From Desulfarculus sp. (GTDB lineage Bacteria > Desulfobacterota > Desulfarculia > Desulfarculales > Desulfarculaceae): a stretch of 63,321 nucleotides of DNA. The stretch spans positions 1-63,321 of the forward strand of contig JACRDC010000041.1 of the NCBI GenBank assembly GCA_016218705.1, read 5' to 3'. Below the pieces are notes generated by a model that was given only the letters and a program-made list of their open reading frames with translations, did no database searches and was not told the origin of the DNA. A program made the position numbers and the translations under genes. The first letter of the stretch is position 1; the number at the start of each line of letters is the position of its first letter. Below, in pieces: positions 1,602-37,512 of this stretch.

Positions 1602-2927
1602 ATGAAAGTCAGCGTGGAAGAACTCAGTTCGGTGCAGCGCAAGGTGACCGTGGAGGTCCCGGCCCAAGAGGTGGACAAGACCATGGAGACCCTGTACAAA
1701 CGTCTGGCCCGCCAGGCCAGGATCAAGGGTTTCCGTCCCGGCAAGGTGCCGCGCAGCATTCTAGAGAAATACTACGGACCCCAGGTGGCGGCCGAGTCGG
1801 CCGAGAGCCTCATAGGCGACAAGTACCCCGAGGCCCTGGCCGAGACCAAGCTGGAGCCGGTGGCTCGCCCTGACTTTGACTTCGGCATACCCCAGGCCGG
1901 CCAGGACTACGTCTTCAGCGTCACCCTGGACGTCAAGCCCGAGTTCGCCCTGGACGGCTCGATCTACAAGGGCCTGAAGCTCAAGGAGCCCAGGCTGGAG
2001 GTCAGCCAGGCCGAGGTGGACCAGCGCCTTACCGCCCTGGCCGGCCGCCAGGCCGTGCTGGCGCCCCTGGATGAGCCCCGGCCGGCCCAGACCGGCGACG
2101 TGGTCATCATGGACTACCAGTCCTTCAAGGGCGAGGAGCCCGTGGCCGGCGGCCAGGCCGAGAATGTGGAAGTGGAGCTGGGCGGCGGCCAGGTGCAGAC
2201 CGAGATCGAGCTGGCCCTTTTGCGCGCCTCGGTGGGCGACTCGGTGGAGACCACGGTTCACTACGGCCCCGAGGCCACCAACCCCGAGCTCCAGGACCAG
2301 GACGTGCGCTTCGTGATGCAGGTCAAGGACATCAAGAAGAAGCTCCTGCCCGAGATTGACGACGACTTCGCCCGCTCGCTCTCCCCGGAGTTCAAGGACC
2401 TACAGGCCCTCAAGGACCGCATCGTGGCCGACCTGGAGGAGTCCTACCAGGCCCAGCGCGACATGGCCCTGCGCACCCAGATACTGGATCAACTGCGGGA
2501 GAAGGGCGAGTTCGAGGTGCCGGCCACCCTGGTGCGCGCCGAGGTGGAGGGCATGGTGGAGAGCTTCAAGAACCGCATGCGCCAGCAGGGCATGGATCCC
2601 CAGGCCATGGGCCTGGAGGAGGACAAGCTGGCCGAGGGCTTCCAGGAGCAGGCCCAGAAGAAGGTGCGCGCCGGCATCGTGCTGGGGCGCATCGCCGAGC
2701 AGGAAAACGTAGAGGTCAAGGCCGAGGACCTCGACAAGGACCTGGGCAAGATGGCCGAGCGCATGGGGCAACCCCTGGGGGCCATCAAGGAAATGTACAT
2801 AAAAAACAATATGATGCCCACCTTGCAAGCCCGCATTCTAGAAGAAAAGACGTTGCAGGTCATCAGGGCCGATGCTATCATTGAACAAGTGGACCCAGCT
2901 GAATTGGCCAAGGAAACCGAAGCTTAA
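1602..2927 (+). CDS. tig: Trigger factor (ribosome-associated chaperone)
   Basis: A 441-residue trigger factor: a prolyl isomerase/chaperone that binds nascent chains at the ribosome exit tunnel. The N-terminal ribosome-binding domain carries the loop around [17 protein letters not shown] (residues about 40-57). A degenerate FKBP domain follows (about 160-245), then a long helical C-terminal substrate cradle. The start at 1602 has an AAGGA site 9 nt upstream. The length is usual for the family. It heads the conserved order tig-clpP-clpX-(lon), with clpP 35 nt downstream, which links folding of new proteins to proteolysis. Confidence 0.96.
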
Positions 2928-2962
2928 CTACTTAGGCCCCCCAGCGGGGCAAGGCATTCATA

Positions 2963-3553
2963 ATGACGCTCATTCCCTTTGTCATCGAGCAGACCAGCCG
3001 CGGCGAGCGCTCCTACGACATCTACTCGCGGCTCTTGAAAGACCGCATCGTGATGCTGGGCCAGCCCGTGGACGACACGGTGGCCAACGTCATCATCGCC
3101 CAGTTCCTGTTCCTGGAGGCCGAGGACCCCACCAAGGACATCCACCTCTACATCAACTCTCCGGGCGGGGTGGTGACCGCCGGCCTGGCCATCTACGACA
3201 CCATGCAGTACATCAAGCCCAAGGTCAGCACGCTGTGCCTGGGCCAGGCCTCCTCCATGGCCGCCCTCCTGCTGGCCGCCGGCGAGAAGGGCATGCGCTA
3301 CAGCCTGCCCCACTCGCGCATCCTCATCCATCAGCCCATGGGAGGCTTCTCGGGCCAGGCCACGGACATTGACATCCATGCCCGCGAGATACTCAAGCTG
3401 CGCGAGGAGCTCAACCAGATACTGGCCGGCCACACCGGCCAGCCCCTGGACAAGATCAGCCAGGACACCGAGCGCGACTACTTCATGAGCGGCGAGGCGG
3501 CCCGGGAATACGGCCTGGTGGACAAGGTCATCACCCACCGCGAGCTGGCCTAG
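2963..3553 (+). CDS. clpP: ClpP proteolytic subunit
   Basis: 196-residue serine peptidase of the ClpXP/ClpAP complex. The catalytic triad is visible: S98 in GQASSMA, H123 in ILIHQP, and D172 in TERDYF. The oxyanion segment NSPGG is at residues 65-69. The length matches other ClpP proteins with a short propeptide. It sits 35 nt after tig and 39 nt before clpX and is very likely co-transcribed with both. Confidence 0.97.
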
Positions 3554-3592
3554 GACGCAGCGTACCCCGGCCCAACAGGGAGGCCATAGTAC

Positions 3593-4855
3593 ATGACCAA
3601 AAAGACCAACGGCGGCAAGGGCTCGGATCTGGTCTGCTCCTTCTGCGGCAAGAGCCAGGATGAGGTCAAGAAGCTCATCGCCGGCCCCTCGGTGTACATC
3701 TGCGACGAGTGCATCGAGCTGTGCAACGAGATAATCGAGGAGGAGTATCAGAAGGAAGAGGCCGCCAGCCGGGTCTCCATTCCCAAGCCCAAGGAAATCA
3801 AGGCCATCATTGACGAGTACGTCATTGAGCAGGAGCGGGCCAAGAAGATCCTGGCCGTGGCCGTGCACAACCACTACAAGCGCATTGACGCTCGGGTGGA
3901 GATGGGCGGCGTGGAGTTGCAGAAGAGCAACATCCTCCTGGTCGGCCCCACCGGCAGCGGCAAGACCCTGTTGGCCCAGACGCTGGCCCGCATACTCAAC
4001 GTGCCCTTCACCATCGCCGACGCCACCACGCTCACCGAGGCCGGCTACGTGGGCGAGGACGTGGAGAACATCATCCTCAACCTCTTGCAGGCCGCCGACT
4101 ACGACGTGGAGCGCGCCCAGCGGGGCATCGTCTACATTGACGAGATAGACAAGATCGCCCGCAAGAGCGAGAACCCCTCCATCACCCGCGACGTATCGGG
4201 CGAGGGCGTGCAGCAGGCCCTGCTGAAGATCATCGAGGGCACCATGGCCTCGGTGCCGCCCAAGGGCGGGCGCAAGCATCCCCAGCAGGAGTTCGTCAAG
4301 GTAGACACCACCAACATCCTGTTCATCTGCGGCGGGGCCTTCGTGGGCCTGGAAAAGATCATCAAGAACCGCATCGGGGCCAAGACCCTGGGCTTCACCG
4401 CCGACGTGCGCGACAAGAGCCAGGAGTTGCCCCTGGGCGACGTGCTGGCCCAGTGCCAGCCCGAGGACCTGATAAAGTTCGGGCTCATCCCCGAGTTCGT
4501 GGGGCGCCTGCCCGTGGCCGCCACCCTGGACGAGCTAAGCGAAGACGCCATGATCCGCATCCTGCGCGAGCCCAAGAACGCGCTCACCAAGCAGTACGCC
4601 AAGCTGTTTGAGTTCGAGGGCGTGGAGTTGAAATTCACCGACGAGGCCCTGCAGGCCGTGGCCAAGGAGGCCTTGAACCGCAAGAGCGGCGCCCGGGGCC
4701 TGCGCTCCATCCTGGAGTCGGCCATGCTGGACATCATGTACGACCTGCCCTCCCTCAAGGACGTGCAGGAGTGCGTGATCGGCGAGGAGGTCATCACCCG
4801 CGGCGAGCAGCCGATTCTGCTCTACGCCAAGCAGCAGGCCGCCGAATACGCCTAG
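3593..4855 (+). CDS. clpX: ClpX unfoldase, ATPase subunit
   Basis: 420-residue AAA+ unfoldase that delivers substrates to ClpP. The N-terminal zinc-binding domain has C15-x2-C18 and C37-x2-C40. The Walker A motif is GPTGSGKT (residues 118-125), and Walker B is IDEIDK shortly after. The RGVQ-type pore and sensor segments and the C-terminal small domain (LKDVQECVI) are present, so the protein is full length. A strong terminator follows at 4906-4947, so lon is a separate unit. Confidence 0.97.
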
Positions 4856-27566: not shown

Positions 27567-28103
27567 CTAGTCGGTGATGAGGGCGCGCTTGTTGGTCTTG
27601 CCGCGCTTGCCGGTCTTCTGGGCCTTGGCCTTGGGCTTTAGGGCCTTGGGCTTGGCCCCCAGGGATTGTCCGGCCTTGGGGGCGGCATAGGCCTGGCCGG
27701 CCTTCTTGCCCTTCTTAGCCTTGGAGGCCTTGGCCTGGGACGTTTTGCCGGCGGCGCCGGGCAGCTTGCCGGTTTGGGGTGTGGCCTCGGCGGCGAACCT
27801 TTTACCGCCGCGGGGCTTGCCGGCCTTGGCGGCGGCCTTGCCGGCGGGGGCTTGTCCGAGGCCGGCGGAGCGCTTGGCCTTCTTGCCTTTTTTTACCTTG
27901 CCCGGGGCGGGGACGGGAGCGGGGGGGGCCTCGTCGCTAAAGGTCTTCACCGGCCTGGGCTTGGGTGATTCCTGGTAGGCCGGCGGCTCGCTGGCCATGA
28001 GGCCCTGGGCCTCCTCGGCGCCAGCCGGCAGGGGGGCGGCGGCCAGGGACAGGGCGGCGGCGCCGGCAATACTGGCCCAAAGCCAGCGTTTAGGCAACTT
28101 CAT
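27567..28103 (-). CDS. Exported Lys/Ala/Pro-rich basic protein
   Basis: 178 residues: a signal peptide (WASIAGAAALSLAAAPLPAG) and a mature region that is almost entirely Lys, Ala, Gly and Pro with repeated KAKKGKK/KAGKPRGGK-like stretches. It has no globular domain. The strong positive charge suggests binding to peptidoglycan-linked acidic polymers, lipopolysaccharide or nucleic acid outside the cytoplasm; this is inference. Its start overlaps the end of the upstream gene by 14 nt, so the two are co-transcribed. Confidence 0.65.
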   Translation of the reverse strand: MKLPKRWLWASIAGAAALSLAAAPLPAGAEEAQGLMASEPPAYQESPKPRPVKTFSDEAPPAPVPAPGKVKKGKKAKRSAGLGQAPAGKAAAKAGKPRGGKRFAAEATPQTGKLPGAAGKTSQAKASKAKKGKKAGQAYAAPKAGQSLGAKPKALKPKAKAQKTGKRGKTNKRALITD

Positions 28104-29117: not shown

Positions 29118-29318
29118 ATGAAAAAACTGGTGATCCTTGTGGCCATGGCCTTCGCCCTGAGCTGCGCCCCCTTCGCCTTCGCCGCCGACCAGGCCGCCCC
29201 CGCTGACAAGCCGGCCATGGAGAAGGAGACCAAGAAGGTCAAAAAGACCAAGAAGGCCGCCAAGAAGGCCCCCAAGAAGGACAAGAAGGCGGCTGACAAG
29301 CCCGCCGAGACCAAGTAA
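29118..29318 (+). CDS. Small exported lysine-rich protein
   Basis: 66 residues behind a perfect AGGAGG (29106-29111). The signal peptide is KKLVILVAMAFALSCAPFAFA. The mature 43 residues are mostly Lys, Ala, Pro and Asp/Glu (KKVKKTKKAAKKAPKK), with no domain. It resembles a miniature of the basic exported protein at 27567-28103. A strong terminator follows, and the ribosome site and leader suggest it is well expressed. Confidence 0.7.
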   Translation: MKKLVILVAMAFALSCAPFAFAADQAAPADKPAMEKETKKVKKTKKAAKKAPKKDKKAADKPAETK

Positions 29319-29484: not shown

Positions 29485-29512
29485 TTGACAGGGCGCTAAA
29501 AATAAGTATTCT
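29485..29512 (+). promoter_or_regulatory. Promoter of the rrf2 redox cluster
   Basis: TTGACA (29485-29490) and TATTCT (29507-29512) with 16 nt between, about 30 nt before the rrf2 start. The -10 element lies inside the inverted repeat. Confidence 0.65.
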
Positions 29513-29525
29513 AGTACCAGAATAC
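29506..29525. promoter_or_regulatory. Probable Rrf2 operator
   Basis: A perfect inverted repeat GTATTCT-N6-AGAATAC overlaps the -10 box, placed 17 nt ahead of the regulator gene. Occupancy would block initiation, so autorepression relieved by cluster loss is the simple reading. Confidence 0.65.
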
Positions 29526-29541
29526 ACCTAAGAGGGGAATC

Positions 29542-29976
29542 ATGGCCAACGTACTGAAGATCTCCGACGCCGCATCCCTGGCCCTGCACACCATGGTGCT
29601 CTTGGCGGCCAACCCGGGCAAGATCATGTCCACCAAGGACATCGCTGGGGTGCTCAAGGTCTCCGAGGCCCACCTGGCCAAGGTGCTGCAACGCCTGGGG
29701 CGGGCTGGCCTGGTGACCTCCCAGCGCGGCCCCAAGGGCGGTTTCAGCCTGGGCCGCGACAGCCGCCAGGTCAGCCTGCTGGAGGTCTACGAGGCCGTGG
29801 AAGGCCCCCTGGAGACCAAGACCTGCCTTTTGGGCAAGCCGGTCTGCGGCGGCAAATGCGTCCTGGGCGGCCTACTGCACAAGGTGGGCAGCGAGGTAAC
29901 CGACTACTTCACGCAAACCAGGCTTTCGGACCTTACCTTCCCCCTGCCAAGCGAGGAATGCCATGCGCAAGCTTAG
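29542..29976 (+). CDS. Rrf2-family Fe-S transcriptional regulator
   Basis: 144 residues. The winged helix spans about 1-75 (SDAASLALHTMVLLAANPGK; VSEAHLAKVLQRLGRAGLVT; GPKGGFSL). The wing is followed by a cysteine cluster C95-x6-C102-x3-C106 that would hold an Fe-S cluster, as in IscR/NsrR-like members. It probably senses NO, oxygen or redox state. Its stop overlaps the ferredoxin gene by 14 nt, and the palindrome at its promoter is the likely target. This makes it the local regulator of the downstream redox genes. Confidence 0.9.
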   Translation: MANVLKISDAASLALHTMVLLAANPGKIMSTKDIAGVLKVSEAHLAKVLQRLGRAGLVTSQRGPKGGFSLGRDSRQVSLLEVYEAVEGPLETKTCLLGKPVCGGKCVLGGLLHKVGSEVTDYFTQTRLSDLTFPLPSEECHAQA

Positions 29977-30802
29977 AAACATCATCCAAATTGACGAGGA
30001 AAAGTGCACCGGCTGCGGTCAGTGCATCCTGGACTGCGCCGAGGGGGCCTTGCAACTGGTGGACGGCAAGGCCAAGCTGGTGGGTGAGATATTCTGCGAC
30101 GGTCTGGGCGCCTGCCTCTCCGGCTGCCCCACCGGGGCCTTGCAGGTGATCCAGCGCGAGGCCGACGATTTTGACGAGAAGGCCGTGGAGGATCTCCTGC
30201 GCTCCCAGGGGCGTGAGTTGCCCCCCACCGGCCAGCAACCCCAGCACAGCCACCATGAGCACGGCCATCACGGTCACCATGGCCATGAACATGGCCACGG
30301 CCATCATCACGGCCTGGCGGCCGCGCCCCAGCCGGCCCTGGCCTGCGGCTGCCCCGGCTCGGCGGCCATGAGCCTGGCGCCCGGCGCCGCCCCGGCCACG
30401 GCCTCTGGCCTGGCCGCCTCCCAGTTGGGGCACTGGCCCATCAAGCTGCAACTGCTCAACCCCCAGGCCCCCTTCCTCAAGAACGCGGACCTGCTTTTGC
30501 TGGCCGACTGCGCCGGCGCCTCCCTGCCCGACCTGCACGGCCGTCTGCTGCGTGGCCGGGCCATCGCCCTGGCCTGTCCCAAGCTGGACGACGCCCAGGC
30601 CCACATTGACAAGCTGGCCCAGGTGCTGGCCACGGCCCAGCCACGCTCGCTGACCACGGTCATCATGGAGGTGCCCTGCTGCCGGGGCCTGGAGTACATC
30701 GCCCAGCAGGCCCTGGCCAAGGCCGGCGTGCAGCCCCAACTGGGCAGCCTGGTGGTGGCCCGCGACGGCCGGGTGCTGGAGAGCCACCTGCCCTGGGAAT
30801 AG
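29963..30802 (+). CDS. His-rich ferredoxin-type protein
   Basis: 279 residues. Cluster 1 is complete: C15-x2-C18-x2-C21-x3-C25. Cluster 2 has only three cysteines (C45, C51, C55), because the usual second cysteine is L48 (CDGLGACLSGCP), so it may be 3Fe-4S or use another ligand. Residues 94-117 contain 14 histidines among Gly/Glu, a likely metal-binding loop. The C-terminal half has scattered cysteines (CGC near 128-130, LLLADCAGAS, EVPCCRGLEYI). It overlaps rrf2. The family is met beside Rrf2 regulators in anaerobes; the reaction is unknown. Confidence 0.75.
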   Translation: MRKLRNIIQIDEEKCTGCGQCILDCAEGALQLVDGKAKLVGEIFCDGLGACLSGCPTGALQVIQREADDFDEKAVEDLLRSQGRELPPTGQQPQHSHHEHGHHGHHGHEHGHGHHHGLAAAPQPALACGCPGSAAMSLAPGAAPATASGLAASQLGHWPIKLQLLNPQAPFLKNADLLLLADCAGASLPDLHGRLLRGRAIALACPKLDDAQAHIDKLAQVLATAQPRSLTTVIMEVPCCRGLEYIAQQALAKAGVQPQLGSLVVARDGRVLESHLPWE

Positions 30803-30893
30803 TCACCCCAATAAAACTGTGTTTTCTCGGGGACCCCGATGGCCACCCCAAGAAAATTGCTCTGATGGCGGCGAAAAGACGGAGAGCGAGGAC

Positions 30894-31721
30894 ATGGGTC
30901 AGGTGAGTTGGGATAGCGCCGCCGCCGCGGCCCTGGGCAAGGTGCCCTTTCTGGTGCGGCCCCTGGCCCGGCGCAAGGTGGAGGATCGGGTGGCCGCCCA
31001 GGGGCGCCAGCGGGTGCTTTTGAGCGACTTCGCCGAGGCCGAGGCCCGCTTCCGGGCGGTGATGGGAGGGCGCTCCGAAAAGGAGCTGCAAGGGCTACTG
31101 CCGCAGGACAACCGCCCCGGCGCCGGCCTCACGGTGCTGGAGGCCTGCCGCAGCGAGCTCTCCGGCTGCCCGAACCGCCTGATTGACGTGGAAGCCTGGC
31201 GCCAGGCCCTGCAAGAGTGGCTGGATAGGGACCAGGTCTCCGAGCGCCTGCGGGCGCGGGTCAGCGACCCCCAGGTGCTCTATCACCACAAGCTGCGCCT
31301 GGCGGTGGCCGGCTGCCCCAACGGCTGCTCGCGTCCCCAGATCGCCGACCTGGCCCTGGTGGGCTTTGTGCGCCCCGAGTTTTACCTGGACCACTGCCAG
31401 GGCTGCGGGGCCTGCGCCCGCGACTGCCCGGACCAGGCCATCGTTATGGTTGAGGACCGCCCGGTGTGGGACCAGGCCGCCTGCCAGGGCTGCCTGGCCT
31501 GCTCAAAGGCCTGCCCCACGGAGTGCATCATCACCAGCCAGCCGGCGGCGCGCCTGTTGATGGGCGGCAAGCTGGGCCGCCACCCCCATCTGGCCCAGGC
31601 GGTGGGCGAGGCCAGCGACCCCGCGCAGGCGGTGGAGGACTTCAAGGCAGTGGTGGAGAATTACCTGAACACGGCCAACCCCGGCGAGCGCTTCGCCGCC
31701 TGGTGGACGCGCACGCACTAG
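30894..31721 (+). CDS. Small sulfite/nitrite-reductase-like protein with two 4Fe-4S motifs
   Basis: 275 residues from the ATG at 30894 (GGAGAGCGAGG upstream). Siroheme/4Fe-4S ligand cysteines are C85-x6-C92 and C141-x3-C145 (GCPNGCSRP). An inserted ferredoxin follows: C168-x2-C171-x2-C174-x3-C178 and C197-x2-C200-x2-C203-x3-C207. This matches the small single-module Dsr-like proteins rather than DsrA/B or a full assimilatory enzyme, which are larger. The substrate could be sulfite, nitrite or another small oxyanion. It follows the ferredoxin gene by 91 nt in the Rrf2 cluster. Confidence 0.8.
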   Translation: MGQVSWDSAAAAALGKVPFLVRPLARRKVEDRVAAQGRQRVLLSDFAEAEARFRAVMGGRSEKELQGLLPQDNRPGAGLTVLEACRSELSGCPNRLIDVEAWRQALQEWLDRDQVSERLRARVSDPQVLYHHKLRLAVAGCPNGCSRPQIADLALVGFVRPEFYLDHCQGCGACARDCPDQAIVMVEDRPVWDQAACQGCLACSKACPTECIITSQPAARLLMGGKLGRHPHLAQAVGEASDPAQAVEDFKAVVENYLNTANPGERFAAWWTRTH

Positions 31722-31736
31722 AAGGGAGCTAGAACT

Positions 31737-32483
31737 ATGGGCAACACCATGTGCCCCGGACAGGACACGGCCTTCTGGAAGCCGGGCGACATCTTCGAGG
31801 TGCCTTGCAGCCACTGCGGCCAGGAGATGGAGTTCTTCAAGGACGACGCCAGCCGCCGTTGCACCGGCTGCGGGGCCCGGGTGCAGAACCCCAAGCTCAA
31901 CCTGGGCTGCGCCCAGTGGTGCGAGCACGCCAAGGAGTGCCTGGGCTACGACCCCAAGGAGGTCATGCAGGCCGAGGGCGAGGAAACCCCCCTGGTGGAC
32001 CGCCTGGTGGAGGCCATGAAGCGCACCTTTGGCAACGATCAGAGGCGCATCACCCACGCGCTCACCGTGCTGGAGCGGGCCAAGGAGATCATGCGCGCCG
32101 AGAAGGGCGCCGACCCCAAGGTGGTGCTGGCCGCGGCGGTGCTGCACGACATCGGCATCCAGGAGGCCGAGCGCAAGCACGGCTCCAACGCTGGCCGCTG
32201 GCAGGAGATAGAGGGACCGCCCATCGCGGAGCCCATCATGAAGGACCTGGGCCTGGACGAGGAGACCCGCGACCACGTGGGACGCATCATCGCCAACCAC
32301 CACAGCGCCCGCGGCATAGACACCCTGGAGTTTCGCATCCTGTGGGACGCCGACTGGCTGGTGAACATCCCCGAGGAGTACCCCGGCCACACCCCGGAGA
32401 AGCTCACGGCCCTGATCCACAAGGTCTTCAAGACCAAGAGCGGCCGCAAGCTGGCCCTGGAGCGCCTGCTGCCCCAGGCCTAG
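31737..32483 (+). CDS. HD-domain protein with N-terminal zinc ribbon
   Basis: 248 residues. A zinc-ribbon-like N-terminus (C-x2-C in PCSHCGQE, C-x2-C in RCTGCGAR) is followed by C-rich GCAQWCEHAKEC and then an HD phosphohydrolase core: RITHALTVLERA (first His), AAVLHDIG (HD), IANHHSA and ILWDADWL (last Asp). It probably hydrolyses a nucleotide or a phosphodiester. The gene starts 15 nt after the reductase-like gene, so it is in the same unit; the ribbon suggests protein or metal contact. Confidence 0.82.
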   Translation: MGNTMCPGQDTAFWKPGDIFEVPCSHCGQEMEFFKDDASRRCTGCGARVQNPKLNLGCAQWCEHAKECLGYDPKEVMQAEGEETPLVDRLVEAMKRTFGNDQRRITHALTVLERAKEIMRAEKGADPKVVLAAAVLHDIGIQEAERKHGSNAGRWQEIEGPPIAEPIMKDLGLDEETRDHVGRIIANHHSARGIDTLEFRILWDADWLVNIPEEYPGHTPEKLTALIHKVFKTKSGRKLALERLLPQA

Positions 32484-32524
32484 CCCCGAGCCCCGACCCC
32501 GCGCACCCGATTATTTTTAACCTG

Positions 32525-32553
32525 CCAGGCCCCCGGCCCTGCCGGGGGCCTGG
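32525..32553 (+). terminator. G+C-rich hairpin between HD and polyferredoxin genes
   Basis: A perfect 13-bp stem, CCAGGCCCCCGGC with GCCGGGGGCCTGG, loop CCT. The T-run lies on the 5' side (32511-32518) and none lies 3', so it may attenuate rather than terminate plus-strand transcription. Confidence 0.4.
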
Positions 32554-32618
32554 CCAGCAGTCCGCCCGCCGGTCCTGGCCAAGGGCGATATGACGCAAGC
32601 CTGAGCGGATGGGTTGAT

Positions 32619-33626
32619 ATGGCGCAAGGCAATTGGTGGCAAAGGGTCAGCGCCTGGCGCGCTTTGGCGCAGTGGGGCTTTTTCCTGTGGGTGGTCTACC
32701 TCGGCGTCAACTTCGGCCTTTTCGTGCGCCATTTCGAGAGCGGCGGGGCGGCCCCCCTGGTCTCGCGCCCGCCGGGGGTGGAGGGGTTTTTGCCCATCGG
32801 CGCCCTGGTCAGCCTCAAGCACTGGCTGGCCTCGGGGACCATCAACCCGGTGCACCCGGCGGCCCTGGTCATCTTCCTCGCCATCGTGGGCATGAGCCTC
32901 TTGGCCAAGAAATCCTTCTGCTCCTGGCTGTGCCCGGTGGGCACTCTCTCCGAGGCCGCCTGGAAGCTGGGCCGGCGCCTCATGGGGCGCAACTTCCGCC
33001 CCTGGCCCTGGCTGGACGTGACCCTGCGCGCGGCCAAGTACCTGCTGCTCTTCTTCTTCGTGAAGATCATACTGCTGGACATGCCGGCCTACGCCTTGGC
33101 CGCCTTTCTCAACACCCCCTACTGGGCGCTGAGCGACGTGAAGATGCTCCATTTCTTCACCCGCATGTCAACCACCACCATGGCGGTCCTGGCGGTGCTC
33201 ACCCTGTTCTCGCTGATCTATGCCAATTTCTGGTGCCGTTATCTCTGCCCCTACGGCGCCCTGCTGGGTTTGGCCAGCCTGCTCAGCCCCTTCAAGATTA
33301 GGCGTGATCCCGAGGGCTGCACGGGATGCCGCAGTTGCAGCCGGGCCTGCCCGGCGGGCATGCCGGTGCATGGCAAGCAGACCATCCGCTCGCCGGAGTG
33401 CAGTGGCTGCCTGACCTGCGTGGACAGTTGCCCGCAGAAGGGCGTCCTGGCGATGGAGCTCGGCGGCGGGCGATTGGGGCTGCCGGCCTGGGTCTTCCCG
33501 GCGGCGGCGGTGGCGCTCTTTGCCGTGGGGGTGGGCGCGGGCATGGCCAGCGGCCATTGGCAGAGCTCCCTGGGTTATGCCCAGTATCGGATGCTCATCC
33601 CCATGGCGTTCATGTTCAGCCATTAA
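32619..33626 (+). CDS. NapH-like membrane polyferredoxin
   Basis: 335 residues with about five membrane helices and two CxxxCP-type membrane-edge motifs (FCSWLCPVGTLSE and FWCRYLCPYGALLG), as in the NapH/CcoG/RdxA family. Two cytosolic 4Fe-4S motifs follow: CTGCRSCSRACP and CSGCLTCVDSCP. A final membrane helix follows (VFPAAAVALFAVGVGAG). It would carry electrons from the quinone pool or membrane to a soluble partner, plausibly the upstream reductase-like and ferredoxin proteins. It lies 135 nt after the HD gene. Confidence 0.88.
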   Translation: MAQGNWWQRVSAWRALAQWGFFLWVVYLGVNFGLFVRHFESGGAAPLVSRPPGVEGFLPIGALVSLKHWLASGTINPVHPAALVIFLAIVGMSLLAKKSFCSWLCPVGTLSEAAWKLGRRLMGRNFRPWPWLDVTLRAAKYLLLFFFVKIILLDMPAYALAAFLNTPYWALSDVKMLHFFTRMSTTTMAVLAVLTLFSLIYANFWCRYLCPYGALLGLASLLSPFKIRRDPEGCTGCRSCSRACPAGMPVHGKQTIRSPECSGCLTCVDSCPQKGVLAMELGGGRLGLPAWVFPAAAVALFAVGVGAGMASGHWQSSLGYAQYRMLIPMAFMFSH

Positions 33627-34571: not shown

Positions 34572-34589
34572 GGTAGTGTCTCAGTTTGA
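34572..34589. repeat. IS1-family left terminal inverted repeat
   Basis: 18 bp, perfect partner of 36983-37000. The transposase stop codon lies inside it. Confidence 0.9.
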
Positions 34590-35429
34590 TTCTTGAAGCC
34601 GGGCTTCCCGCTCGTCGATCATTCGCACTATGTCTTCAAGGTCCATAGGGCTGGCGACAAGGCCGGCTTCCATGGCGGGCGTGACTCTGAGCGACTTATG
34701 GATACGAACGAAGTTGTAGTAGACGAAGTAGAGGGCCAGAGCGTGGCAGTGGTTCTCTAACTTCTTGCTGAATCCATTGGTCAGGCGCGTGAACCGCCGC
34801 ATGCTCATACGCATTGTTAAATTCTGGCGTTCCACGTAGCTCGTGCTGATATGCTTGCTGTCGGGCTTGCCGGTGATAACCGACTTGGCGCAGGCCACTA
34901 TCTCCGGCGGGCTATAACGCTTCTCGGCCTCGGGTGGCGTGCCGTACATCTTGACCAGCATGCCGTAGTCAATATCGGCCCCAAAGGCCCCCTCAACTGC
35001 TACCAGATAAGCCTTGTGGCCATCAGTGGTCAACTGGACGCGGCCTGCCAGCCTGGAAGCCAGGTCTTGCATGAAGAACGAGGCTGTTTCCGCGTTGCGG
35101 TCCCCAACCATCCAACCGCAAATCAGCTTGGAGTCAGCATCTATCGCGGTCCAGGTCCAAACGTCCCCGGCTTCATCCTTCTTGTGGTCAGGCGTGTTCT
35201 TTTGCTTGGAGTAGCAGAAGGACCAAATCTCGTCGCACTGGACGCGGCGGGCGGTCAGGCCCCGCACCATCTGGTCATGGAATTCAGCGCAGGTGTTGCC
35301 GGCGTCCACCAGGAGCTTGGTCACGGTGTTGATAGAGCAGCCCACCACACGGGATATTGCCCGCATGGAAGACCCCTCTACCAGCATGTGCAGGATTTGG
35401 ACCCGCTTCTGTAGTGGCAACCTGTTCAT
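34581..35429 (-). CDS. IS1-family DDE transposase
   Basis: 282 residues in one frame, without the programmed frameshift of classical insAB. An N-terminal helix-turn-helix (RAISRVVGCSINTVTKLLVD, about 23-42) is followed by the catalytic core D66 (QCDEIWSF), D136 (LTTDGHKAY) and E200 (SYVERQNLTMRM). All catalytic residues are present. The gene ends inside the left terminal repeat, as usual for a compact IS. It cuts and joins the element ends. Confidence 0.9.
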   Translation of the reverse strand: MNRLPLQKRVQILHMLVEGSSMRAISRVVGCSINTVTKLLVDAGNTCAEFHDQMVRGLTARRVQCDEIWSFCYSKQKNTPDHKKDEAGDVWTWTAIDADSKLICGWMVGDRNAETASFFMQDLASRLAGRVQLTTDGHKAYLVAVEGAFGADIDYGMLVKMYGTPPEAEKRYSPPEIVACAKSVITGKPDSKHISTSYVERQNLTMRMSMRRFTRLTNGFSKKLENHCHALALYFVYYNFVRIHKSLRVTPAMEAGLVASPMDLEDIVRMIDEREARLQESN

Positions 35430-35503: not shown

Positions 35504-36439
35504 CTAGTTGCTTGGCGAGGCAGATGCCACACTCATTTTTACCATTGCGGTACCAAGGTGGTTTTCTATGATCTTGTGTGCAGGGGAATTCATCAGCGTA
35601 TTAATAAAGCAGTGATGAACGCTTAGCACCAAGTCCTGAAAAACTTGGTCATCCTCTAACTGCTCCACTACAAGACCCATTTCTCTACACTCAGCAAGGT
35701 GAATATGCTTACCGTGGCTTCTATTTAATTTATAGTCGGTCAATTTTTTTATTATATTTTTTACGACCCTATCTCTTTTAACTTTTGGCATACTGGCAAA
35801 CATCACATTTTCTAGCTCATGCTTTACAAATCCTTCAGACCATTTTACTGCGTCTTCGCATTGGCGTAAAAAGGTTGGGCGGTATTGCCCGACAATTAAC
35901 GACCACAATGGCAGCATGGCCGGGTCTTTCTTGACCTCCTTTAATGCTCTCTTAAATTCGTCAACCACGCCCTGCGCGGGTATGCCGTTTAAATGTGGAT
36001 CAATTGGCCCTAAATTTGATTGTTTACCCAATACGATGGCCTTGCAACTACATGCCAACATTGTACCGGCGGACATTGCGATTTGCGGGACTATGGCCCT
36101 GATATCATTGCCAAACATCTGCCTAAGGTAATTTACGATCGACTCGGTAGCCGCAATACTGCCCCCTTCGGTATGCAGTATTAAATCCAAGCCTTTGCTG
36201 CGGTCAAGATGATGGACGCCCATCATAAAGCCGTTTTTGTCTTCATCATTAATCTCTGTGCCACGGATATTTGGCTTAGACAGCCAGCCAGAATAATACG
36301 CAATTATGTTTCTTCCTGTGTATTCATGAAGTTGTGATAAATACTTTCTCCTAATAATGTTGACAGCGCTATTCGCCTCAGTGCTAGCCTGAATGCGCTT
36401 GTTGTGAATTTCGTTGAGTATGTCGTGCCAGTTTGGCAT
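35504..36439 (-). CDS. SDH-type Clp-fold serine proteinase (IS passenger)
   Basis: 311 residues. The Clp/crotonase-fold core shows LDLILHTEGGSIAATESIVN (oxyanion GGS at 92-94), S123 in QIAMSAGTMLA as the probable nucleophile and NLGPIDPHL (D147/H149) after it. This matches the serine dehydrogenase proteinase (SDH) family and differs from ClpP in lacking the ClpP barrel-contact motifs. There is no signal peptide. Its start shares one base with the stop of the upstream small gene. It is lower in G+C than the chromosome and lies inside the IS, so it travels as cargo. Host benefit or defence could be its role; both are inference. Confidence 0.8.
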   Translation of the reverse strand: MPNWHDILNEIHNKRIQASTEANSAVNIIRRKYLSQLHEYTGRNIIAYYSGWLSKPNIRGTEINDEDKNGFMMGVHHLDRSKGLDLILHTEGGSIAATESIVNYLRQMFGNDIRAIVPQIAMSAGTMLACSCKAIVLGKQSNLGPIDPHLNGIPAQGVVDEFKRALKEVKKDPAMLPLWSLIVGQYRPTFLRQCEDAVKWSEGFVKHELENVMFASMPKVKRDRVVKNIIKKLTDYKLNRSHGKHIHLAECREMGLVVEQLEDDQVFQDLVLSVHHCFINTLMNSPAHKIIENHLGTAMVKMSVASASPSN

Positions 36440-37122: not shown

Positions 37123-37512
37123 TTACTTATTGCCCTTGCGCATGTCAATGTCGTCGGGGTACATCACCGCCTCGTGGCCGCGCTCGCCGGTGCGGATGCG
37201 CACGACCTCCTCCACGGGGTAGATGAAGATCAGTCCGTCGCCGGCCTCGCCGTTGGTGCCGGTCTTGCCGGCCTTGACGATGGCGTTGACCGTCTCCTCC
37301 AGGTTGTGGGAACTCAGCACGATGTTGATCTGGATCTTGGGCAGCAGGTCCACCTGGTAGGAGCCCGAGCGCCCCGAGAGCAGGATGCCGCCCTGCCGGC
37401 CGTGGCCGCGTATCTCGAAGATGTTCATGCCCACGATGCCGATGGCCCTTAGCGCGTCCTTGACGTCGTTGAGCTTGTCTTCCCTGATTATGGCTTCAAT
37501 CTTCCTTAACAT
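37123..37512 (-). CDS. glnK: PII nitrogen regulatory protein (GlnK/GlnB type)
   Basis: 129 residues, slightly longer than the usual 112. It begins MLRKIEAIIREDKLNDVKDA. The T-loop is atypical (GRQGGILLSGRSGSYQVDLL) but keeps the tyrosine in the uridylylation position before QVDLLPK. The B-loop TGTNGEAGDGLIFIYPVEEV is intact. It binds ATP/ADP and 2-oxoglutarate and plugs the ammonium channel. It lies 18 nt after amt, the usual amt-glnK pair, and shares the sigma54 promoter upstream of amt. Confidence 0.93.
   Translation of the reverse strand: MLRKIEAIIREDKLNDVKDALRAIGIVGMNIFEIRGHGRQGGILLSGRSGSYQVDLLPKIQINIVLSSHNLEETVNAIVKAGKTGTNGEAGDGLIFIYPVEEVVRIRTGERGHEAVMYPDDIDMRKGNK

Follow-up and report, generated by a model that had tools for sequence, protein, structure and literature searches.

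In delta-proteobacteria and clostridia, the HcpR regulon is built around the genes hcp and frdX (PMC545781, PMC1274295). HcpR, described in Desulfovibrio, Geobacter and Clostridium, is a CRP/FNR activator with TGTGA/TTGAC sites that responds to nitrite or nitric oxide (NO), and the Desulfovibrio version of its regulon also has a sulfite/nitrite reductase-like gene with a polyferredoxin (D. vulgaris 206515–206516; predicted regulon member, nitrite-induced; PMC545781). C. difficile becomes sensitive to NO when hcp or frdX is knocked down (PMC12915319). A second regulator with hcp among its targets is NsrR, an NO-sensing repressor of the Rrf2 family with three conserved cysteines and the operator consensus gATGyAT-N5-ATrCATc (PMC1274295). 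On the enzyme side, a relative of Fsr is a nitrite/hydroxylamine reductase (PMC9295563), and nitrate induces, in the acidophilic sulfate reducer Acididesulfobacillus, a small siroheme protein encoded next to a ferredoxin, along with AsrABC and Hcp (PMC10949509). Here we describe a cluster at positions 29485–33626 of a 63,321-nt stretch of Desulfarculus sp. DNA (GCA_016218705.1, contig JACRDC010000041.1, forward strand; the whole stretch is termed the window), in which an Rrf2-family gene precedes genes for a FrdX-like ferredoxin, a half-size siroheme-type protein (SIR) and an HD-domain protein. We propose that the cluster is probably one of the operons in a small regulon for nitrogen-oxide stress, controlled by a predicted Rrf2 repressor distinct from NsrR; this repressor would take the role that HcpR or NsrR plays elsewhere. 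The parts are as follows.

29485–29512, + strand: sigma-70-type promoter read from the sequence, with −35 TTGACA (29485–29490), a 16-bp spacer and −10 TATTCT (29507–29512)
29506–29525, no strand: operator-like palindrome GTATTCTAGTACCAGAATAC over the −10 box, with 9 of 10 pairs matched
29542–29976, + strand: predicted Rrf2-family repressor, 144 residues, C95-x6-C102-x3-C106 (PF02082, E 2e-30; alignment)
29963–30802, + strand: FrdX-like protein, 279 residues, with a 2×[4Fe-4S] ferredoxin, a His-rich linker and a C-terminal alpha/beta domain (profiles, alignment)
30894–31721, + strand: SIR, 275 residues, with PCP_red (6–49), NIR_SIR with C85-x6-C92...C141-x3-C145 and an inserted 2×[4Fe-4S] ferredoxin (166–212) (profiles, alignment)
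31737–32483, + strand: HD-domain protein, 248 residues, with an N-terminal zinc ribbon (C24, C27, C42, C45) and C58-x3-C62-x5-C68 (profiles, alignment)
32484–32618, + strand: gap of 135 bp with the strong hairpin GGCCCCCGGC-CCT-GCCGGGGGCC, its core retained in the closest relative, L005
32619–33626, + strand: NapH-like membrane polyferredoxin, 335 residues, accessory (profiles), adjoining the HD gene only in the window's genus

An earlier note on this DNA had reported a palindrome over the −10 box and the five genes within 29485–33626, and all were found there, the genes on the + strand.

Operator-like site and proposed regulon

A scan of the whole assembly (4.2 Mb) for the palindrome, as the earlier note had advised, recovered a single perfect copy; the runner-up by content, differing by one mismatch (C112:42541), lies 5′ of an rrf2 paralogue (63% identity) that is directly followed by hcp. 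In related genomes the site is retained at equal distance upstream of orthologous rrf2 genes. Exact matching of the pattern GTATTnTnRTACCnnAATA across 20 genomes of the window's family returned 22 distinct sites, compared with none for the reversed pattern used as control. Fourteen of these precede rrf2-ferredoxin-SIR, six precede hcp directly, one precedes an rrf2 paralogue-hcp pair and one precedes CBS-HPP genes; in genome G404 the operator, rrf2, ferredoxin, SIR, HD and hcp genes form one uninterrupted run. All 22 share the geometry TTGAC-N~16-TATTnT with the operator over the −10 box, which is the arrangement expected of a repressor site. Judged by its sequence, this conservation of operator and promoter is far beyond chance and the palindrome behaves as an operator, so that the Rrf2 control proposed earlier gains support from a site that overlies the −10 box and is conserved with the rrf2 gene. 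Two further matches in the same genome were set aside: a one-mismatch match (C121:48077), which does not have the TACC core seen in the family pattern or any related gene nearby, and a three-mismatch palindrome (C3:11656) with no related gene adjoining.

Genes for HPP proteins occur in 9 of the 20 family genomes, and scoring of these loci by operator mismatches placed a site with at most two mismatches at five of the nine and with at most three at seven, usually just 5′ of the CBS or HPP gene; shuffling gave no sites at two mismatches and 0.1 loci on average at three. The CBS-HPP genes of the window's own genome have a two-mismatch site beside their start, and CBS-HPP genes under the same operator were also seen at L105 (about 1500–2705, − strand) and L124 (about 2440–3640, − strand). 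CBS-HPP is thus likely, from these sites, to be a third target of the Rrf2 regulator in part of the family. According to PMC4137279, which cites Maeda 2014, HPP-family proteins transport nitrite in cyanobacteria and chloroplasts.

We are highly confident, on the distribution of the sites, that the genes sharing the operator would form one regulon, and somewhat less so, though still strongly, that its signal would be a nitrogen oxide. The earlier note had left the substrate of the reductase blank; its class can probably be narrowed to nitrogen oxides because the same operator ties the cluster to hcp and (CBS-)HPP.

Rrf2 proteins include redox- and iron-sensing members such as IscR and RirA. Membership of the window protein in this family is clear (PF02082, 106 bits against a cut-off of 30), and C95, C102 and C106 are invariant across 13 aligned relatives. 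Its scores fall far under the NCBIfam cut-offs of NsrR, IscR, RirA and CymR (46.5 bits against 182 for the NsrR equivalog), and it therefore appears to stand outside these named groups. Its operator, GTATTnT-N6-AnAATAC, likewise differs from the NsrR consensus given above. Compared with the HcpR regulon, the targets hcp and a frdX-like ferredoxin are alike, whereas the regulator gene here is Rrf2 and the operator GTATTCTnnnnnnAGAATAC overlies the −10 box. No CRP/FNR gene stands beside hcp-frdX at the window, the C112 hcp locus or the family sites, where the neighbouring regulator is Rrf2 or none; the best CRP homologue of the genome (36% identity) sits on another contig, and a CRP protein may act on these loci from a distance.

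The presence of HPP under the operator also fits assimilatory nitrite reduction, in which HPP would import nitrite, SIR would reduce it to ammonium with FrdX as donor, the regulon would serve nitrogen supply and hcp would handle leaked NO and hydroxylamine. This account agrees with the position of PII and Amt genes, which follow HD at short range in several relatives and at 4 kb in the window, with the confinement of NrfA within the family to the window's genus and with the nitrate induction of the Acididesulfobacillus siroheme protein and ferredoxin with hcp (PMC10949509). However, exact operator sites before the stress gene hcp outnumber those before HPP, and the PII and Amt genes lie on the opposite strand with no exact operator site before them; we regard assimilation as an unlikely, if the strongest, competitor. 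Less probable still is a general Fe-S or redox (oxygen) stress regulon in which loss of the cluster would be the signal and Hcp and SIR would scavenge several oxidants: the gene set is rich in Fe-S proteins and the Rrf2 family has the redox and iron sensors IscR and RirA (PMC9338935), but every exact operator site lies before the nitrogen-oxide set of hcp, frdX-SIR-HD or HPP.

The siroheme-type protein and the ferredoxin

Protein classes were assigned from Pfam and NCBIfam profiles with their cut-offs. SIR matched the NIR_SIR profile (E 6e-13), and PF01077 together with PF08369 (PCP_red) was present in 32/32 aligned family members, none of which carried PF03460, the half domain of siroheme reductases. 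The four cysteines of the siroheme-[4Fe-4S] motif C-x5-C-n-C-x3-C were kept in 44/44 members, with a first spacing of 5 in 29 and of 6 in 15 (the window among the latter); invariant or nearly so were these four cysteines, the eight ferredoxin cysteines, His131, Asp152, GG-K-GR and Arg266. The best solved relatives in a profile search were Fsr (7np8) and DsrB for the main part and, for the N terminus, PCP_red of dark-operative protochlorophyllide reductase (ChlB/BchB; matches 2kru and 2ynm). SIR shares C-x5/6-C...C-x3-C, the inserted 2×[4Fe-4S] ferredoxin and the GGKxGR and ER motifs with the C-terminal domain of Fsr, with Dsr-LP and with AsrC; unlike these it has an N-terminal PCP_red, and unlike ChlB/BchB it fuses PCP_red to a siroheme-type reductase without nitrogenase-like domains. 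The nearest described counterpart, Acididesulfobacillus DEACI_1836, is likewise a small NIR_SIR protein whose gene adjoins that of a ferredoxin and is induced by nitrate together with hcp (PMC10949509), but it has PF03460, and a PCP_red domain is not reported for it. On sequence grounds SIR is a variant of siroheme-type proteins, with putative cofactor and reaction, and is not filed as Dsr-LP.

Dsr-LP proteins are marked by three or four of the four sulfite-binding Arg/Lys residues (PMC3448663). The Fsr motif YKFK reads H-(E/K/Q)-(F/L)-R in SIR members, which means that most of them have lost the third of the basic residues at the sulfite site of Dsr-like proteins; position 135 is R or K in 41/44, and the first two Dsr-LP sulfite positions could not be aligned and are placed in the absent half domain. 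A sulfite or sulfur-stress cluster, in which SIR would be a ferredoxin-dependent sulfite reductase for detoxification, draws on Fsr and DsrB as closest solved relatives but was dropped as the leading account after the hcp and HPP links emerged and, given these links, the absence of PF03460 and a third Dsr sulfite-site lysine that is mostly E or Q, is very improbable. With moderate confidence, no better than even, we take SIR to be a candidate siroheme nitrite, hydroxylamine or NO reductase. Its predicted structure, built like that of the ferredoxin on an alignment of 3–4 rows, has a predicted local distance difference test (pLDDT) score of 54, too weak to decide, and a fold search with this low-confidence model found nothing at E ≤ 0.001. 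At E 1e-12, SIR relatives were seen in 149 of the 395 phylum genomes sampled, a count that also takes in more distant siroheme proteins.

The ferredoxin gene starts 14 nt before the end of the rrf2 stop codon, and the two genes overlap. Its assignment as FrdX-like follows the definition of a gene in an operon or regulon with hcp, which holds here through the shared operator. The C-terminal alpha/beta domain, with invariant C183, C205, C239 and C240, was found in 286 of the 395 genomes; it has no Pfam relative, and a PDB profile search matched the ferredoxin part only. The predicted structure scores pLDDT 53 overall and about 80 in this domain, for which all fold-search matches were of a common alpha/beta type (best Z 7.5, beta-carbonic anhydrase, with tied rows), and no function was read from these tied rows of a common fold. 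The His-rich stretch noted earlier is present (residues about 95–116) but confined to the window and L005; it is a local feature that may bind metal, and on this distribution it was dropped as a core part.

Gene partners and neighbours

Elsewhere in the phylum, genes for Hcp, the FrdX-like ferredoxin, SIR and HD are repeatedly found close together. Outside the family, 70 genomes had a SIR match, hcp being present in 61 of them and HD in 63, and with a proximity limit of 10 kb the pairs were SIR-HD in 39/63, HD-hcp in 33/57, SIR-hcp in 29/61, hcp-ferredoxin in 17/38 and, where positions were listed, HD-ferredoxin in 30/40. By chance such a pair would be expected in <1% of genomes (our estimate, 20 kb within ~3 Mb). 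Because gene order varies, a functional tie is favoured over descent of one frozen block. A CRP-family gene adjoins hcp at several of these loci, as known for HcpR, and in other genomes the ferredoxin gene has hcp and a CRP-family gene as neighbours. The reading of the cluster as one of electron transfer and reductase genes is supported by domain content and co-occurrence: four of its five genes co-occur in many genomes, so that the lack of co-occurrence which the earlier note had named as a refutation is not what is seen. The exception is the NapH-like gene, which is absent from nearly all orthologous clusters. The HD protein, once called an unusual partner, is a frequent one by the HD-hcp count above.

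In the HD protein, the PF01966 residues H107, H137, D138 and D204 (H...HD...D) are kept in 12/12 members of one alignment, and the zinc ribbon and C-x3-C-x5-C are invariant in its relatives. As these cysteines are invariant and HD residues are lost in several distant members, it may be the N-terminal part that is essential. Six relatives (L052, L062, L034, L037, L068 and L069) keep the zinc ribbon and C58/C62/C68 without the HD metal ligands. The hairpin in the gap that follows, which has no T-run, is a possible terminator. The NapH-like protein resembles NapH/MauN in domain type alone (TIGR02163, 91 bits against 213). Its gene lies beside HD in the window, L005/G400 and G403, all of one genus, with the homologues of G340 and G398 away from the cluster; judged by this distribution it is a genus-level add-on, and it was dropped as a core part. 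The membrane-to-ferredoxin electron path drawn earlier consequently does not hold as a general feature, the NapH-like gene being missing from nearly all clusters and the His-rich linker local.

Several neighbouring genes were also recorded. A PII gene (37123–37512, − strand) and an Amt ammonium transporter gene (from about 37534, − strand) lie in the window; in relatives L039–L043 a PII gene stands close after HD in convergent orientation, with Amt adjoining in several. A full-length NrfA-type cytochrome c nitrite reductase is encoded at G000:C125:6735–8048, and within the family only in the window's genus. An IS1/DDE-type transposase-like gene (34581–35429, − strand) lies between the cluster and a serine-protease-like gene (35504–36439), hinting at a recent insertion downstream. 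On the 5′ side are small, Lys/Ala-rich, secreted-looking orphan open reading frames (29118–29318, + strand; 27567–28103, − strand) without a confident Pfam family.

Proposed mechanism and implications

In the proposed mechanism, the Fe-S Rrf2 repressor would sit on the 20-bp palindrome over the −10 box and block transcription of its own operon, rrf2-frdX-like ferredoxin-SIR-HD(-napH), of hcp (at some loci preceded by an rrf2 paralogue) and, in some family members, of (CBS-)HPP. Damage to its cluster by NO, or by NO derived from nitrite, would release it, upon which Hcp would remove NO by reduction, the FrdX-like ferredoxin would supply low-potential electrons, and SIR would use a siroheme-[4Fe-4S] centre to reduce a nitrogen oxide, most likely nitrite, hydroxylamine or NO. 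The site, its conservation and targets, the co-occurrence of the genes and their domains are observed; binding of DNA by this Rrf2 protein, the signal that it senses, how SIR reacts and with which cofactor, the source of the electrons and the part played by HD are inferred from these observations.

Several observations weigh against this proposal. The C-x6-C-x3-C spacing of the Rrf2 protein differs from that of NsrR, and a Ser occupies, as judged by eye, the position of the NsrR Asp8 ligand, so that belonging to the family does not in itself imply NO sensing; DNA binding by the protein and its effector are themselves predictions from sequence. SIR lacks PF03460, where we place two Dsr sulfite-binding arginines, and its Lys133 is E or Q in 26/44 members, which together leave its catalysis uncertain. 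SIR is also unlinked in 22 of the 70 genomes outside the family, partly on short contigs, and the HD metal ligands are lost in several distant members.

The response to nitrogen oxides and the core genes are already known; Rrf2 control, the PCP_red-type SIR and the HD partner are apparently new. An incomplete literature search, covering few subscription journals, found no description of an Rrf2-controlled hcp regulon in these bacteria, nor of the Rrf2 operator, a two-to-three-operon regulon, a PCP_red-type SIR or the HD partner. The earlier reading, which lacked both the operator link to hcp and (CBS-)HPP and the PCP_red domain in place of the half domain, is partly supported. More tentatively, and with less than even odds in our view, the SIR family may represent a new siroheme-enzyme architecture in which PCP_red replaces the substrate-side half domain, a compact nitrite, hydroxylamine or NO reductase that would act alongside Hcp and FrdX. 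The zinc-ribbon HD protein would then be the fourth conserved member of this anaerobic defence against nitrogen oxides. Such an architecture would amount to a domain swap among siroheme-type enzymes.

Hcp is a major NO scavenger of anaerobes whose partners outside enterobacteria are poorly known, and a recurring partner set is seen here across the phylum, comprising a FrdX-like ferredoxin, a PCP_red-type SIR and a zinc-ribbon HD protein. With two to three targets, the proposed repressor and operator form a compact system in which the question can be tested directly. Our results also suggest that in this family an Rrf2 repressor has taken over the control of hcp from a CRP/FNR activator.

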